From positions 1 through 48,990 of IMG/VR virus record IMGVR_UViG_3300007345_000064: a DNA stretch of 48,990 nucleotides; one strand, written 5' to 3'. A program made the translations under genes and the position numbers. The notes beneath the pieces are model-generated. The model saw nothing but the letters and a program-made list of their open reading frames with translations. It had not been told where the DNA came from and ran no database searches. This DNA comes from a virus. Positions 19,637 to 30,989 of the stretch are shown piece by piece (positions within the stretch are counted from its first letter, which is position 1; every line of letters starts with the position of its first letter).

Positions 19637-19831
19637 GTGACTCGGGAGTGGAATACACCCACGCGTGAACCGTGGAATACAGCGATTAAGACTGCACTAG
19701 ACACTCTAGACAAACATAATCAGTTTTATTTTAAAACAAACGATACAAAACACTTGATTTTAGCTCAATTACTACGAGATTACGTAAATTATCTTAAAAA
19801 TTTGATCACGGAGACCGAAGACCAGCCCTAA
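19637..19831 (+). CDS. Hypothetical protein, 64 aa
   Basis: GTG start, then MTREWNTPTREPWNTAIKTA and a helical region ending LLRDYVNYLKNLITETED. First gene of the long plus-strand series. Downstream of its stop is a CCGC-TTC-GCGG hairpin followed by GCGCC, one of a set of similar hairpins in this region. Function unknown. Confidence 0.6.
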   Translation: MTREWNTPTREPWNTAIKTALDTLDKHNQFYFKTNDTKHLILAQLLRDYVNYLKNLITETEDQP

Positions 19832-19833
19832 CT

Positions 19834-19846
19834 CCGCTTCGCGGGC
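19834..19846 (+). repeat. UUC-loop hairpin, family member 1
   Basis: CCGC-TTC-GCGG then GCGCCTTCAT, directly after a stop codon. Related hairpins follow stops at 23033 and 24482 and precede the gene at 25367. Confidence 0.5.
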
Positions 19847-19858
19847 GCCTTCATGGTG

Positions 19859-19867
19859 TGCTATAGT
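19859..19867 (+). promoter_or_regulatory. Putative extended -10, TGCTATAGT
   Basis: TG-C-TATAGT 26 bases before the ATG at 19893; the best match in the window to the recurring TGCTANNNT pattern. Confidence 0.55.
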
Positions 19868-19892
19868 AAGCACGTAGTCACATCACAAGCAC

Positions 19893-19997
19893 ATGCGCAC
19901 CTACAAAGTCCGTCTCGGCGTCTCTGGTCGTTCAGTCGGTAGCCGCACGGGAAGAAAAACCTCTTCTAGCTGGAGCAAGCGCGTCCGCTGGACCTGA
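19893..19997 (+). CDS. Tiny basic peptide, 34 aa
   Basis: MRTYKVRLGVSGRSVGSRTG, then an Arg/Lys/Ser/Trp-rich tail. It has its own -10 site upstream and a strong terminator 14 bases downstream, so it forms a single-gene transcription unit. That arrangement argues that it is real despite its size. Highly basic: RNA, DNA or host-enzyme binding is likely, but no homologue is known to me. Confidence 0.55.
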   Translation: MRTYKVRLGVSGRSVGSRTGRKTSSSWSKRVRWT

Positions 19998-20010
19998 AAA
20001 GTTTGACGAG

Positions 20011-20036
20011 TCGCCCCACGCGGGCGATTTTTTTTT
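20011..20036 (+). terminator. Rho-independent terminator
   Basis: TCGCCC (20011-20016), loop CACGC, GGGCGA (20022-20027), then nine T. The loop and stem contain the strand-biased octamer CCACGCGG. Confidence 0.85.
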
Positions 20037-20047
20037 CGACAAGCGGC

Positions 20048-20063
20048 TGATTGTATACTGACA
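20048..20063 (+). promoter_or_regulatory. Putative promoter of the structured RNA region
   Basis: TGATTGTATACTGACA, identical over 16 bases to the tRNA promoter on the other strand at 16648-16663. The next start codon of a convincing gene is 1.2 kb away, so it most likely drives a non-coding transcript. Confidence 0.55.
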
Positions 20064-20176
20064 CTCAAAAGTTTTACCTCAATTTCCCAGCAAGATACCC
20101 ATACCCTTCTCGCCCGGGGCGTCGTCGAAAGGCTCTATTTAAAAAAAAGGCGAATTGCGGGCAGGATTGCGCATAC

Positions 20177-20193
20177 ATGTAAACCATTTACAT
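20177..20193. promoter_or_regulatory. Perfect inverted repeat, operator-like
   Basis: ATGTAAA-CCA-TTTACAT, 7-base arms, between the promoter at 20048 and the alternating tract. Possible regulator site or small RNA hairpin. Confidence 0.4.
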
Positions 20194-20207
20194 TTATATT
20201 TAGGCCC

Positions 20208-20318
20208 CCGCGTGCGTGCGCGTGTACATGTGCGCGTGTGCGCCTGCGTGTACGCGTGTGCGCGTATATACGCGCGTGGGTGTGCGCGTTACATTCGCGC
20301 GTGCGGACGCGTGCGCCC
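20208..20318. repeat. Alternating purine-pyrimidine (GC/GT) tract
   Basis: About 110 bases almost wholly of GC, GT, AC, TA and CG steps, with the 16-base palindrome GCGCGTATATACGCGC at 20261-20276. Such DNA can adopt the Z form or extrude a cruciform; the TA core could also open easily. ORFs across it are artefacts of the repeat. Nothing else in the window resembles it. Confidence 0.75.
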
Positions 20319-20344
20319 GGTTCTTGTTACCTACCAGCAAGCCC

Positions 20345-21095
20345 CGGAGAGTGTGCCAATCAACTATCCGGCACAAGACTGTTGACTCCCTGCACTGATC
20401 CGGCATACCTTGTGGTCACTGGAGGAACGGGGTGAGAGCCACGCCGCCAGGGCACCTGGACAACCGAAGAGGAACCGCCGGGCCGAACCAGCCCCGCAAC
20501 TGCCGCCGATGGTAGGGAGAACATCCCCGAAGTGTAGGCGATGGCAGACGTGGTGTGCCGGAACGTGAAGCAGCGGATCCTTAAAGGTAACTAGGTGAGA
20601 GAACCTTGACAATCTAAATAGTTAGTCGTGCTGAGATAGTTTGCACGGAAAGCCTAAGGTATGGCTAACTGTTTTACATAATGTGGCACCGTCAAGAGAC
20701 GGAACTAGGGGTGCGAGCGATCCCCCGAGCACAATAGAGTTGCAACCCGACTCGCTAAGTGTGCACGGTGCCGTATGTCAGCAGGTATCTTGTCTGTAAC
20801 TAAGGAAATGTATCGGCGTTAAACATTAGCCACGCTCGCCACGTGGCGACTGAATACAACCTACATGCTGTCCGTATGTAGTTAGTTACAGTACACAAGC
20901 TGTGTCCAGAGTATCTGTCCTTAGTGCAGGTACGCTGGACAGACTACCTAAGCTCCACTGCACCGTCTGTGCACGATGGCAGCGCAGGATTATATAGTTT
21001 GTGTGCACAATTGTGTGCTGTAACTAACTACATGCAGCAGTTTAGTTTCAGTTAGCTGGCCCGACTTTTAGTTGGGGAAGTCCAGCTAACGCCTA
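20345..21095 (+). ncRNA. Large structured non-coding RNA candidate (GOLLD-like?)
   Basis: No convincing ORF, but many nested complementarities. CCGGCATACC (20400-20409) pairs with GGTGTGCCGG (20552-20561). AATAGTTAG (20617-20625) pairs with CTAACTGTT (20665-20673) around an inner CGTGC/GCACG. GGCACCGT (20685-20692) pairs with ACGGTGCC (20765-20772) enclosing GGGG/CCCC and GAGT/ACTC arms. A 23-bp helix joins 20876-20898 to 21011-21033 with one G-U. The 3' hairpin is GTTAGCTGG (21051-21059) with CCAGCTAAC (21082-21090), stacked on CCCGAC/GTTGGG. Length near 0.75 kb, phage location and complexity recall GOLLD RNA, but I could not compare it with the family model. It may start as early as ~20066. 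Confidence 0.7.
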
Positions 21096-21239
21096 GCGTA
21101 TTGTCGCTTGGTATGTATCAGGATCAAGTTAGATCATTCTTGATCACAGACTGTAGACTCTCTCCCCAAGCTTATCAGTTTGGTGAGGGATTCACTCCCT
21201 CTTTGTTGTTAGCTGCCAGCTCTATTGCTGGTGAATGTT

Positions 21240-21548
21240 ATGAACATCCGCACGAACAATGTTCCTCGCGATCTGATGCACTTGTGCGACTTTAGCCCAT
21301 CAGATCAAGACAAGATCCGCAAGCAATACGATTGGATGGATCCTAATGATCTTGAGTGTAACTATGGTTTCTTTAAATATCGTGGTTGCATTTATCATCT
21401 GCAAGAGTTTCTAACTACAGAGAATGTAGCGTCCGGTGCTCTTACTGAATGGGATGGATGCCTCGGCGATTCATATTTCAGCGGCACACTTATCAAGCTC
21501 GCCGACAACGACTGCGACCGTGTGATCGTAGGTCGTTACTTCTGCTGA
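21240..21548 (+). CDS. Conserved small phage protein, 102 aa
   Basis: Start MNIRTNNVPRDLMHLCDFSP at 21240 rather than the TTG at 21225. The pattern NIRTNNVPRDL...FFKYRGCIYHLQEF...WDG...DSYFSGTLIKL...VIVGRYF matches a type of small early protein I recognise from marine and freshwater phages, without known function. First gene after the structured RNA and probably on the same transcript. Confidence 0.75.
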   Translation: MNIRTNNVPRDLMHLCDFSPSDQDKIRKQYDWMDPNDLECNYGFFKYRGCIYHLQEFLTTENVASGALTEWDGCLGDSYFSGTLIKLADNDCDRVIVGRYFC

Positions 21549-21552
21549 TTAA

Positions 21553-21579
21553 CTGTAACTAATCCAACGCAATCAAACC
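21553..21579 (+). repeat. Leader repeat CTGTAACTAATCCAAC, copy 1
   Basis: CTGTAACTAATCCAACGCAA, followed directly by the ATG at 21580. No Shine-Dalgarno. Other copies at 21842, 22252 and 22593; weaker ones near 24093, 25041 and 26834. Confidence 0.7.
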
Positions 21580-21837
21580 ATGACTGAACTGCAAACTACT
21601 GTGTACACTCTGCCCGCACACTGGGCCAGCATTCTGATCAACCACGATTACACCGGCACAAGTGACGAAGAAGAACAAGAGATTAGTAACTTTATCGACG
21701 GTGAATTCGGTGAGTCTCTGTTCTGTACTGTGTGCCTAACTGATAACGACAGCGAACCCGAGTTCCGTAAGTATCATGACGCACAACCTTATGGTGTGCT
21801 TGCTTGTGACTGCCTGGACTACACATTCATTCACTGA
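21580..21837 (+). CDS. Small acidic early protein, 85 aa
   Basis: VYTLPAHWASILINHDYTGTSDEEEQEIS, then EFGESLFCTV and a final LACDCLDYTFIH. The YTLPAHWAS-LIN-DYTG opening is a recurring form in phage and plasmid small proteins. Strongly acidic, so a protein-binding (host-inhibitor or DNA-mimic) role is conceivable; not shown. Confidence 0.75.
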   Translation: MTELQTTVYTLPAHWASILINHDYTGTSDEEEQEISNFIDGEFGESLFCTVCLTDNDSEPEFRKYHDAQPYGVLACDCLDYTFIH

Positions 21838-28041: not shown

Positions 28042-28244
28042 TGGATCGAACAGTCTTCGTATTTAAGACACATCAGGGGTATCTCTCTGATGTGAATCAC
28101 TACACTCACGACGTTGCACGTGCTGTTTCGTTTGTAGATTTTGACTCGGCTGTAAGCAGATTGGCAGCAGTCAGTGGGACACTCACTGAACCTGTGTCAA
28201 TCGAAGAAGTTTCAATTCCTTTTCCCCGTCCTTTCCCTCAGTAA
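28041..28244 (+). CDS. Small hypothetical protein, 67 aa
   Basis: MDRTVFVFKTHQGYLSDVNH, YTHDVARAVSFVDFDSAVSR, ending PFPRPFPQ. Its ATG shares one base with the upstream stop and the MoxR gene starts four bases after its end, so it belongs to the module. Unknown function. Confidence 0.65.
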   Translation: MDRTVFVFKTHQGYLSDVNHYTHDVARAVSFVDFDSAVSRLAAVSGTLTEPVSIEEVSIPFPRPFPQ

Positions 28245-28248
28245 AACA

Positions 28249-29436
28249 GTGAACGATCAACTTTTCAGCAAGCTTCAAAACTTCCGTGGTGCTCTTAACT
28301 CTGCCACGCTCGAACGCGAACACGTTATCGACGGTCTCCTCGCTTCTGTAATCTCTAAACAGAATGCTTTCCTTCTCGGTGCTCCGGGCACTGGCAAGAG
28401 TGATCTCGTCCGTAGCGTTTGTAAGGGTATCAAAGGTGCTGACTACTTTGGCTATCTCCTGACGCCTACAACTGATCCAAGCGAACTGTTCGGTCCTGTC
28501 GCGGTCACCAAACTCCTCAAAGACGAATACACACGCGACGTCTCCGGTTATCTTCCCTCGGCTCACATCGGTTTCCTCGATGAGCTGTTCCGCAGTTCTT
28601 CTGCGATTCTGAACTCGCTTCTGTCGCTACTGAACGAACGTACGTTTAACAACGGAAATGAAGTCGTAAAGACTCCTCTGCAATCAATCATCGCTGCCAC
28701 AAACAGCTGGCCACAAGAGGAGTCGCTGCAAGCGTTCGCCGATCGCTTTCTTTTCCGTCCGACAGTTGAGCTCCTCAAGAAGCCCGTGTCGAAGCGGACA
28801 CTAGATGAGTGGGCACTGGGCATCGAAGAACGCCCAGAGGTTGGCGAGTTTCTGACACTCGACGAGCTCAACCAAATCCAGGAGTATGCCAAGACCCTTA
28901 AAGTCTCGGACGATTTTCTCGACAAGTTCAATTCTGTCTGGCAGATGCTGTCCCAACGCAGCATCACAATCTCAGATCGTCGTCGTGTTCAGATCCTGAA
29001 GTTCCTTCGCGCGTGGGCAATCGTTCAAGGTGATGAAGAGCTTTACCCTGAGCACATGCACAACAGTATCGTACACATCGTGTACAACGATCTCGAAGAC
29101 CAAAGCACTATCATCGAGATCTTGGAGCAGGAGATTCCCACGGCGGAGCGGCTGTTCGCAGACGCGAAACGAGCTGCAAGCGGGATCATGACGGAGTTCT
29201 CCTCCCTCCGCACTCGCAGCCAAGCAAACAACATCAACTCACTCAACGATGTTGTGATCCATCTTCGTAAGTATCACAAGGATATGAATACCGTAAAAGA
29301 TAAAGTCGATGAGCTTCTGGACGGAACTCGAATTCGAATGAGCGTGTCGACTCGCGCTAAAGCCGTAAAACTTTCCCAGAATCTACAGAACTACTGCGAC
29401 ACAATCGCACAGGCCCTCAACGAAATCTCTCACTGA
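28249..29436 (+). CDS. MoxR-family AAA+ ATPase
   Basis: 395 residues from GTG 28249 (VNDQLFSKLQNFRGALNSAT); the longer frame would overlap the previous gene. Walker A GAPGTGKS at about residues 44-51, Walker B IGFLDELF with D111 and E112, sensor-1 IIAATNSWP, then SLQAFADRFLFRP. MoxR ATPases form hexamers and work with VWA proteins to remodel or insert cofactors into targets (RavA-ViaA, CbbQ-CbbO, NorQ-NorD). The VWA partner starts three bases after its stop. Confidence 0.9.
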   Translation: MNDQLFSKLQNFRGALNSATLEREHVIDGLLASVISKQNAFLLGAPGTGKSDLVRSVCKGIKGADYFGYLLTPTTDPSELFGPVAVTKLLKDEYTRDVSGYLPSAHIGFLDELFRSSSAILNSLLSLLNERTFNNGNEVVKTPLQSIIAATNSWPQEESLQAFADRFLFRPTVELLKKPVSKRTLDEWALGIEERPEVGEFLTLDELNQIQEYAKTLKVSDDFLDKFNSVWQMLSQRSITISDRRRVQILKFLRAWAIVQGDEELYPEHMHNSIVHIVYNDLEDQSTIIEILEQEIPTAERLFADAKRAASGIMTEFSSLRTRSQANNINSLNDVVIHLRKYHKDMNTVKDKVDELLDGTRIRMSVSTRAKAVKLSQNLQNYCDTIAQALNEISH

Positions 29437-29438
29437 TC

Positions 29439-30989
29439 ATGAATCTCGAAAAGAACTCTGAGTTTGTTCGTCTCGTTCACAACGAACCTCTTACGTTGTC
29501 CTGCTCCGCTCTGGCGGACTTTCTTTGGGAGGATTTCGTTCGCGACACTAAGCCCAACGTCACTTACTTGATCAACACCTACAACATCAAACAGCTTTCC
29601 CGATTCGGCAAGGAAGTATTCGAAAGACTCTACAGCGCTGATGAAGTCCAGTGGCTCATTAGTGACGAAGACTTCGAGCAATACTTCCGCCAGATCTGTG
29701 ACGGTGAAACGGCTGCGACCCCTAGAGGTTACAAGCCAGAAAATGCGATCTGGTATTCGATCATGAATGACTTGTCGCAGGCTGCTGCGTGGCCCACGCT
29801 GCTCCAACGTTGTGTGGGCGAACAGTTCAACGCAGGCAACAACGCTGTTCGTATCCTTAACGAGCTCTCGAAAGTAATCGAGGACGCGATCGAACAAGGA
29901 ATGTTCAACGTTGAGTTACTTACAGGAGCAGCTGATCAACTCCAGCAGTTGAGGGACGCTTACAACCAAGCAATCAAAGACGGCGACAAAGCAAAAGCTA
30001 ACCAAGCACGAGCACAAGGGAAAGAGCTGGGCCAAAAGATCCACGACGCTCTGCAACAGGTGCAATCGCAAGTGCAAGCGGAAGCAAACGCAATCGTCGA
30101 TAAAGCTCTCAAAGAAAGCGATCAGCAAAACGAGGAGATGAGCAGCCTCTTCGGCACTATGCCCGGTAACGGTAAGTTGCTGAACGACCTACAGGAGAAA
30201 AGGAAGCTTGCGGATCAGCTAAACAGGAACAGAACGCTTAAGGCAATCGCAAAAAAGCTGGGTGCACTCCGGAAGGTGTGGACAGAGCGGAAGCGTGCGA
30301 AGCCTGCTCGTGCGAACTACGAAGCCGTGACCGGAGCGAAGTTCAGCGACAGTGTGATTAATGCGTTTCCCACGGAGCTGGCTCTGGCTGGCTCGAAGGA
30401 GGGACAGGCTCTGTTTGCGCTTAAGTACTCCCAGAAGACAATCCTGACGAAAGACTACACAGCGACCAGAAAAGACTTAGGTCGCGGTCCTGTGATCATG
30501 TACGTTGATGTATCCGGATCGATGCACGGGGACCTGGAGCTCTGGAGCAAAGCGATTGCTTTGGTTATCTCAGAGCAAGCTCTGATGGATAAGCGCTCTG
30601 TTCACATTCACCTGTTCGACACCGTAATTGGGAACAGCGTCGAGATTAAGAGCGGAGCTTCGAACACGAAGCAGCTTATCGACTTTGTAGCAGGGTGGAC
30701 ACTCGGCGGTGGGACGAGCTTTAACTCCGTGCTTGCCCACGTGGTGAGCCAGAAAGAGCACCTGAAAAATTCCGACATTCTGGTTCTAACAGACGGGAAC
30801 TCGGAAGCTAGCCCATCGTGGATTTCCAGGGTAGAGAGCCTAAAACACGAAACGGGAGCACAAATCACGACGGTTTGCTTGGACATGTCTGTTCCCGAAG
30901 TGTGTAAAAAGTTCAGCGACGAAACTTACTCCGTGGATACAGCGAGTAACATCGACTCTATCGACGTCATTCAAAAGTGTCTTAGGTGA
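29439..30989 (+). CDS. VWA-domain protein, MoxR partner
   Basis: 516 residues. Helical N-terminal 170 residues, a long Gln/Lys/Ala coiled coil (~170-280), then a VWA domain. MIDAS is complete: DVSGSMHGD (Asp357, Ser359, Ser361), a Thr in GGGTSF near residue 427 and VLTDGNSE near 450. Like ViaA, CoxE and CbbO it should bind metal and link substrate to the ATPase hexamer. Target unknown. Confidence 0.88.
   Translation: MNLEKNSEFVRLVHNEPLTLSCSALADFLWEDFVRDTKPNVTYLINTYNIKQLSRFGKEVFERLYSADEVQWLISDEDFEQYFRQICDGETAATPRGYKPENAIWYSIMNDLSQAAAWPTLLQRCVGEQFNAGNNAVRILNELSKVIEDAIEQGMFNVELLTGAADQLQQLRDAYNQAIKDGDKAKANQARAQGKELGQKIHDALQQVQSQVQAEANAIVDKALKESDQQNEEMSSLFGTMPGNGKLLNDLQEKRKLADQLNRNRTLKAIAKKLGALRKVWTERKRAKPARANYEAVTGAKFSDSVINAFPTELALAGSKEGQALFALKYSQKTILTKDYTATRKDLGRGPVIMYVDVSGSMHGDLELWSKAIALVISEQALMDKRSVHIHLFDTVIGNSVEIKSGASNTKQLIDFVAGWTLGGGTSFNSVLAHVVSQKEHLKNSDILVLTDGNSEASPSWISRVESLKHETGAQITTVCLDMSVPEVCKKFSDETYSVDTASNIDSIDVIQKCLR

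Follow-up and report, generated by a model that had tools for sequence, protein, structure and literature searches.

A large, modular structured RNA with two host-type boxA elements precedes the early genes of a putative cyanophage

The nut sites of bacteriophage λ span well under 0.1 kb and need the N protein, and we know of no boxA in the put RNA of bacteriophage HK022 or in the EAR element. GOLLD and ROOL, large ornate phage RNAs of 0.6-0.9 kb, are thought to act in trans as free-standing RNAs. GOLLD forms a homo-oligomeric nanocage (PMC12286853). The rrn operons of E. coli carry a first boxA downstream of the promoter and a second ahead of the 23S gene, and it has been proposed that their antitermination complex helps the leader-trailer helix to form (PMC10250234). 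In marine picocyanobacteria the antitermination box A is GAACCTTGACAACTGCATAG, the reverse complement of a published primer (PMC9769826), and in other cyanobacteria boxA is GAACCTTGAAAA (PMC8461337). Cyanobacteria lack Rho, and how these Rho-less bacteria end most of their transcripts is an open question (PMC13289151). A search of the literature found no antitermination system in cyanophages.

Here we describe a predicted RNA encoded by a viral sequence of 48,990 nucleotides (IMG/VR record IMGVR_UViG_3300007345_000064, analysed over its whole length and referred to as the window). It is large and ornate like GOLLD and ROOL, but it matches neither covariance model, precedes early genes, contains host-type boxA elements and is built in part from swappable modules. 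We put at roughly 60% the probability that it is the leader RNA of an early operon and recruits the host rRNA (Nus-factor) antitermination/folding complex. Because the leader carries the two boxA signals of the host's pre-rRNA, the virus probably borrows the host machinery for rRNA transcription and folding.

Structural genes lie to the left of the RNA on the minus strand and replication genes to its right on the plus strand. The terminase of the window phage is nearest to that of Synechococcus phage S-EIV1 (52.8% identity), and from the terminase and genome context, together with the relatives, we infer a cyanobacterial host. A terminator scan places an intrinsic-terminator-like hairpin with a T run at 20008..20038 (plus strand), closing the upstream transcription unit, and the first early gene (21240..21548, plus strand) begins ~0.8 kb downstream of the inferred RNA start. 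The 102-aa product of this gene (MNIRTNN...) has no Pfam or PHROGs match. It belongs to a small protein family of the form KTNNQPR...KLRKQFDWM...FFKYRGxYYNLxDFM, other members of which are encoded by the first ORF after the RNA in many of the longer relatives (L050, L160, L180, L181, L185, L187, L188 and L190). In the replication arm, at 28174-30989, a gene for a bpMoxR-type AAA ATPase is followed by one for a VWA-domain protein, a pair familiar from MoxR-VWA ternary systems.

In a blastn search against phage records, positions 20686-20751 matched an unannotated stretch of the Synechococcus podoviruses S-CBP1 and DSL-LC07; pattern scans of IMG/VR supplied further relatives, and two classes resulted. 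The short class consists of podoviruses (32 distinct leaders) in which ~0.3 kb separates promoter from early gene, in the order TTGACA-17/18-TATGGT promoter, hairpin, boxA-like word, core module and early gene. The long class comprises 20 loci including the window, on contigs of up to 87 kb; here a small early gene follows the promoter at a distance of 0.7-1.4 kb. In every contig that allows a check, the RNA is upstream of early genes. One strict pattern for the core found it in none of 84,980 bacterial and archaeal species genomes, and the core is also absent from S-EIV1 and from the other boxA-bearing phage contigs examined. S-EIV1, the nearest isolate by terminase, has neither the RNA nor the leader boxA.

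The original prediction was of a giant, ornate structured RNA, lacking a convincing gene, at 20345-21095, and both its structure and its lack of a gene are borne out. The plus strand of 20413-21220 folds at -317.7 kcal/mol, compared with -263.1 +/- 8.1 for dinucleotide shuffles (z = -6.7), and its helices covary, as detailed below; the minus strand of the same interval scores more weakly (z = -5.2). When all frames of at least 30 codons in the block were compared with the long relatives by tblastn, not one was conserved. The block itself is real, but its borders needed to be moved: the promoter and the sequence upstream of it occupy 20345-20411, the 5' end of the RNA is probably near 20416, and beyond 21095 there is conserved structure as far as ~21201 or the start codon at 21240. 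The hexamer TAACTA occurs four times in 20413-21239, where ~0.2 copies are expected, and sits in several conserved loops and helices.

A sigma-70-like promoter element is found on the plus strand at 20382..20411 (TTGACT at 20382-20387, an 18-nt spacer and TACCTT at 20406-20411), implying an RNA start at about 20416-20419. The -10 element is weak and a strict consensus promoter scan does not call the site, and so we base the assignment on conservation: the TTGAC is invariant in 18 of 18 aligned long relatives, and podovirus relatives have TTGACA-17/18-TATGGT-like elements at the equivalent place. Upstream of the promoter, GTGTGCCAAT (20351-20360) is common to L039 and L106, and in part to L189, and may be an upstream element. 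We also note that ~100 nt of alternating purine-pyrimidine sequence (GCGTGCGTGCGCGTGTACATG...), prone to form Z-DNA, lies just upstream at 20206-20312; relatives keep only short GC stretches there.

At the 5' end of the predicted transcript, alignment of the long relatives reveals a hairpin of variable sequence, CTGG...CCAG (20419..20450, plus strand), directly 5' of the first boxA, in a boxB-like position. By eye, the boxA of host rRNA leaders likewise has a hairpin before it, as does that of the tRNA leaders of phages S-PM2 and S-CREM1. The 5' domain that follows (20453..20597, plus strand) is closed by pairing of boxA1 nucleotides 20453-20459 with CTAGGTG at 20591-20597. Over 18 long relatives, 93.9% of the cells at its 39 pairs are paired, against 30-44% in slid controls, and 11 of the 39 pairs show two-sided changes; for the closing helix (CACCTGG/CTAGGTG) the paired fraction is 93.7%, with two-sided changes at two positions.

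The first of the two boxA elements, boxA1 (GCACCTGGACAA; 20452..20463, plus strand), matches the motif of host 16S rRNA leaders, while boxA2 (GAACCTTGACAA; 20601..20612, plus strand) agrees in all 12 nt with the start of the picocyanobacterial ITS boxA. Their order is that of the host, 16S leader and then 16S-23S spacer. They are the only matches to the pattern RMACCTNGAMAA in the 49-kb window, both fall inside the RNA and they are 149 nt apart. Two matches, where 0.27 are expected, are reached in 3 of 100 shuffles with a pattern selected after the sequence had been inspected; the count by itself is modest evidence, and the strength of the case comes from position and from conservation in the relatives. 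Both sites match the pattern in 17 of the 20 long relatives, the others carrying variants. The short podovirus leaders have a single boxA and lack the second; 27 of the 32 distinct leaders match, and the other five differ by one or two letters. The conserved word after the first hairpin, [GA][CA]ACCTNGACAAY, resembles the boxA of cyanobacterial rRNA.

Among genome contigs, matches to GAACCTTGANAACTGNATAG are mainly cyanobacterial, and in Synechococcus BSA11S and WH 5701 this word stands between tRNA-Ala and 23S rRNA. Of 51 loci with a 16S gene, 45 have the motif ACCTNGA[CA]AA upstream of it, at a distance of 114-566 nt; the typical Synechococcus form of the motif is GCACCTGGACAAC. The boxA region of the host leader is complementary to the 16S trailer, and the boxA itself to TTGTCTAGGT in all 14 of the loci listed. 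In the predicted finished fold of the phage RNA, boxA1 is paired, and several long relatives, not all, have a partner that could form a helix closing at boxA2 (TTGACAAY/RTTGTCAG). A hairpin-boxA cassette is also found directly before the tRNA clusters of the cyanomyophages S-PM2 and S-CREM1 (L419:960-990 and L420:800-830). Two unrelated phage contigs (L323 and L335) have TTGACA-17-TATAAT, a hairpin and GCACCTTGACAACTTAATA without the core module.

Between boxA2 and the core, the minimum free energy fold has a long hairpin, AATAGTTAGTC...GGCTAACTGTTT (20616..20676, plus strand), in whose place other hairpins stand in L179, L180, L187 and L192. The core module (20681..20773, plus strand), defined by covariance-model alignment, contains conserved GGAACTAG, GCGAGCGATC and GCAACYC segments and, on the same strand, the helices P1 (20685-20691/20766-20772), P3 (20708-20711/20723-20726), P4 (20729-20733/20760-20764) and P5 (20737-20742/20748-20753). 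In 34 distinct sequences of the shared 88-nt core, 97.0% of cells are paired, against 29-48% when slid, and two-sided changes affect 17 of the 24 pairs, in an alignment built by the covariance model and thus fitted to it, which favours the pairing score. With the unfitted core alignment, RNAalifold finds compensation in 12 of 19 pairs.

The 3' domain is closed by a 23-bp long-range helix, with 96% complementarity and 112 nt between its arms, that lies exactly where the original prediction had placed it (20876-20898/21011-21033, plus strand). That prediction had suggested looking for covariance in homologues, and in 14 distinct homologous arm pairs 82% of cells are paired, against 20-35% in slid controls, with two-sided changes at 9 of the 23 pairs. 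Within the domain is an inner hairpin, TGTCCAGAGTATCTG/CAGGTACGCTGGACA (20903..20941, plus strand), with a conserved loop; TAGTGCAGGTACGCTGGA is conserved in L050, L061 and L106. The predicted stacked 3' hairpin (21051..21090, plus strand) is likewise present, with arms at 21051-21059 and 21082-21090, and relatives have hairpins of differing sequence at the same place. Finally, a conserved hairpin, GAGGGATTCACTCCCTC with TTTGTTGTT (21185..21209, plus strand), is terminator-like in the window according to the terminator scan.

The middle of the long class is a mosaic: the boxA sites are retained, but the core can be replaced by modules unrelated to it. The window has the core, as do L039, L050, L061, L160, L181, L184, L185 and L190, and other structures stand in its place in L106, L179, L180, L187-L189, L192 and L193. 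Exchange of entire domains in this way points to either a single task open to several structures or a different task for each of them. Extra structured modules of 150-250 nt, common to otherwise different phages and without an Rfam match, are seen in L187, L192, L039 and L190.

If the RNA is an early leader, host RNA polymerase would initiate at ~20416 from the sigma-70-type promoter, and the transcript would present the hairpin and boxA first, then the folded 5' domain and then the second boxA, the two boxA copying host rRNA operon elements of the 16S leader and the 16S-23S spacer in turn. NusB-S10, with NusA, NusG and their partners, may assemble on both boxA as on pre-rRNA; the Nus-modified polymerase would then run processively through ~0.8 kb of leader, untranslated and rich in hairpins, and reach the early genes, while the Nus complex may aid closure of the long-range helices. 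Since Rho is absent in cyanobacteria, antitermination here would target intrinsic or other termination, or pausing. Our guess is that the exchangeable ornate domains might hold or tune the modified polymerase, or be released as stable RNA. This leader reading builds on the covarying structure, the promoter-hairpin-boxA layout, the position ahead of the early genes and the identity or near-identity of the boxA elements with those of the host; transcription, Nus-factor binding, antitermination and assisted folding would be what it entails. Against it count the weak -10 element, the pairing of boxA1 in the finished fold, the lack of the RNA in the nearest isolate and the ornate domains, which are far larger than antitermination needs. 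In a bolder version that we hold only tentatively, the two boxA-fronted domains and the leader-trailer-like helix would make the RNA a miniature mimic of pre-rRNA, commandeering the rRNA transcription and RNA-chaperone machine so as to make and fold a giant modular RNA with exchangeable domains that act in trans.

The size and the elaborate, conserved structure would also suit a giant RNA that is stable and free-standing and works in trans, made with the help of rRNA-type boxA; its 3' end would be formed at the 21185-21201 hairpin, or else when the leader-trailer-like helices are processed. The hairpin with a T-rich tail at the 3' end is what such an RNA might be expected to have, and elsewhere boxA typically belongs to RNAs that are not translated and is present at cyanophage tRNA clusters. 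On the other side, L050, L160, L180 and L193 lack the T run, inspection by eye shows no terminator where the podovirus versions continue into the early gene, and the RNA keeps its position directly before an early gene; we consider this explanation possible though doubtful. It is very improbable that the RNA is GOLLD or ROOL, as originally proposed, even if size, phage context and intricacy would fit. A cmscan of 19800-21600 up to E=10, which covers the model search suggested with that proposal, returned only weak repeat-driven or chance matches, mostly from the upstream alternating GT/GC repeat, and neither family; direct searches with GOLLD (RF02032), a model of the conserved 3' region, and with ROOL (RF03087) gave no matches in the window or its relatives; and no tRNA island adjoins the RNA. 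These negatives are good but not absolute, because the records searched include no known GOLLD or ROOL carrier as a positive control, a Lactobacillus brevis phage tried as one for GOLLD giving no match, and the control genomes for ROOL none either. The other possibility raised at the outset, a new class, gains support: of 4227 Rfam families, none reaches its gathering score in the RNA, the sole match in the whole window being a tRNA elsewhere, and in the relatives Rfam finds tRNAs plus a sub-threshold Plastid-ycf2 match overlying them.

With two host boxA elements in host order and a helix resembling the boxA-trailer pairing, the RNA could be imagined as a pre-rRNA decoy, one that by titrating away Nus factors or processing enzymes would switch off the host's rRNA synthesis at an early stage of infection. 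We find this unlikely, given that the short podovirus versions have only one boxA, that tandem boxA arrays would be a simpler decoy and that the location before early genes suggests action in cis. A cis-acting leader of another kind, a riboswitch or attenuator in which the boxA-like words are accidental, would account for the leader position and for the conserved hairpin before the first gene, but seems to us similarly improbable when two exact host-type boxA words hold fixed positions in the relatives and persist where unrelated modules have replaced the core. The junction of two divergent genome arms, where the block lies, would be a place to look for a packaging site, an origin or a similar element acting at the DNA level; the compensatory changes, however, include G-U pairs that fit plus-strand RNA only, and the better folding of the plus strand over the minus strand also makes this scarcely credible.

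Should the preferred reading, an early leader that recruits the rRNA antitermination machinery, be true, a leader copying both rRNA boxA would give natural access to the Nus complex of cyanobacteria, and we know of no earlier phage RNA shown to mimic pre-rRNA. It would also be a new family of giant modular RNAs, with ~50 relatives ready for structure work.

Like the λ nut sites (boxB-boxA, with N protein), which recruit Nus factors, the RNA described here would be a phage early leader with a hairpin and a boxA, although it is ~0.8 kb long and there is no N homologue among the part of the window proteins scanned. HK022 put RNA and the EAR element, as structured early leader or operon RNAs proposed to act in cis on polymerase, provide a further parallel, but they are much smaller and the window RNA has no Rfam match. 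Compared with the leader and spacer boxA of bacterial rRNA operons (rrnTAC), the phage RNA differs in that it encodes no rRNA, leads into phage protein genes and encloses domains for which Rfam shows no relation to 16S or 23S. It nevertheless shares with those operons a promoter-proximal boxA of host type, a hairpin directly before it and a second boxA downstream. Moreover, boxA1 is part of a long-range, domain-closing helix, which may be likened to the pairing of the host leader boxA with the 16S trailer, and the phage boxA elements differ little or not at all from those of picocyanobacterial hosts.
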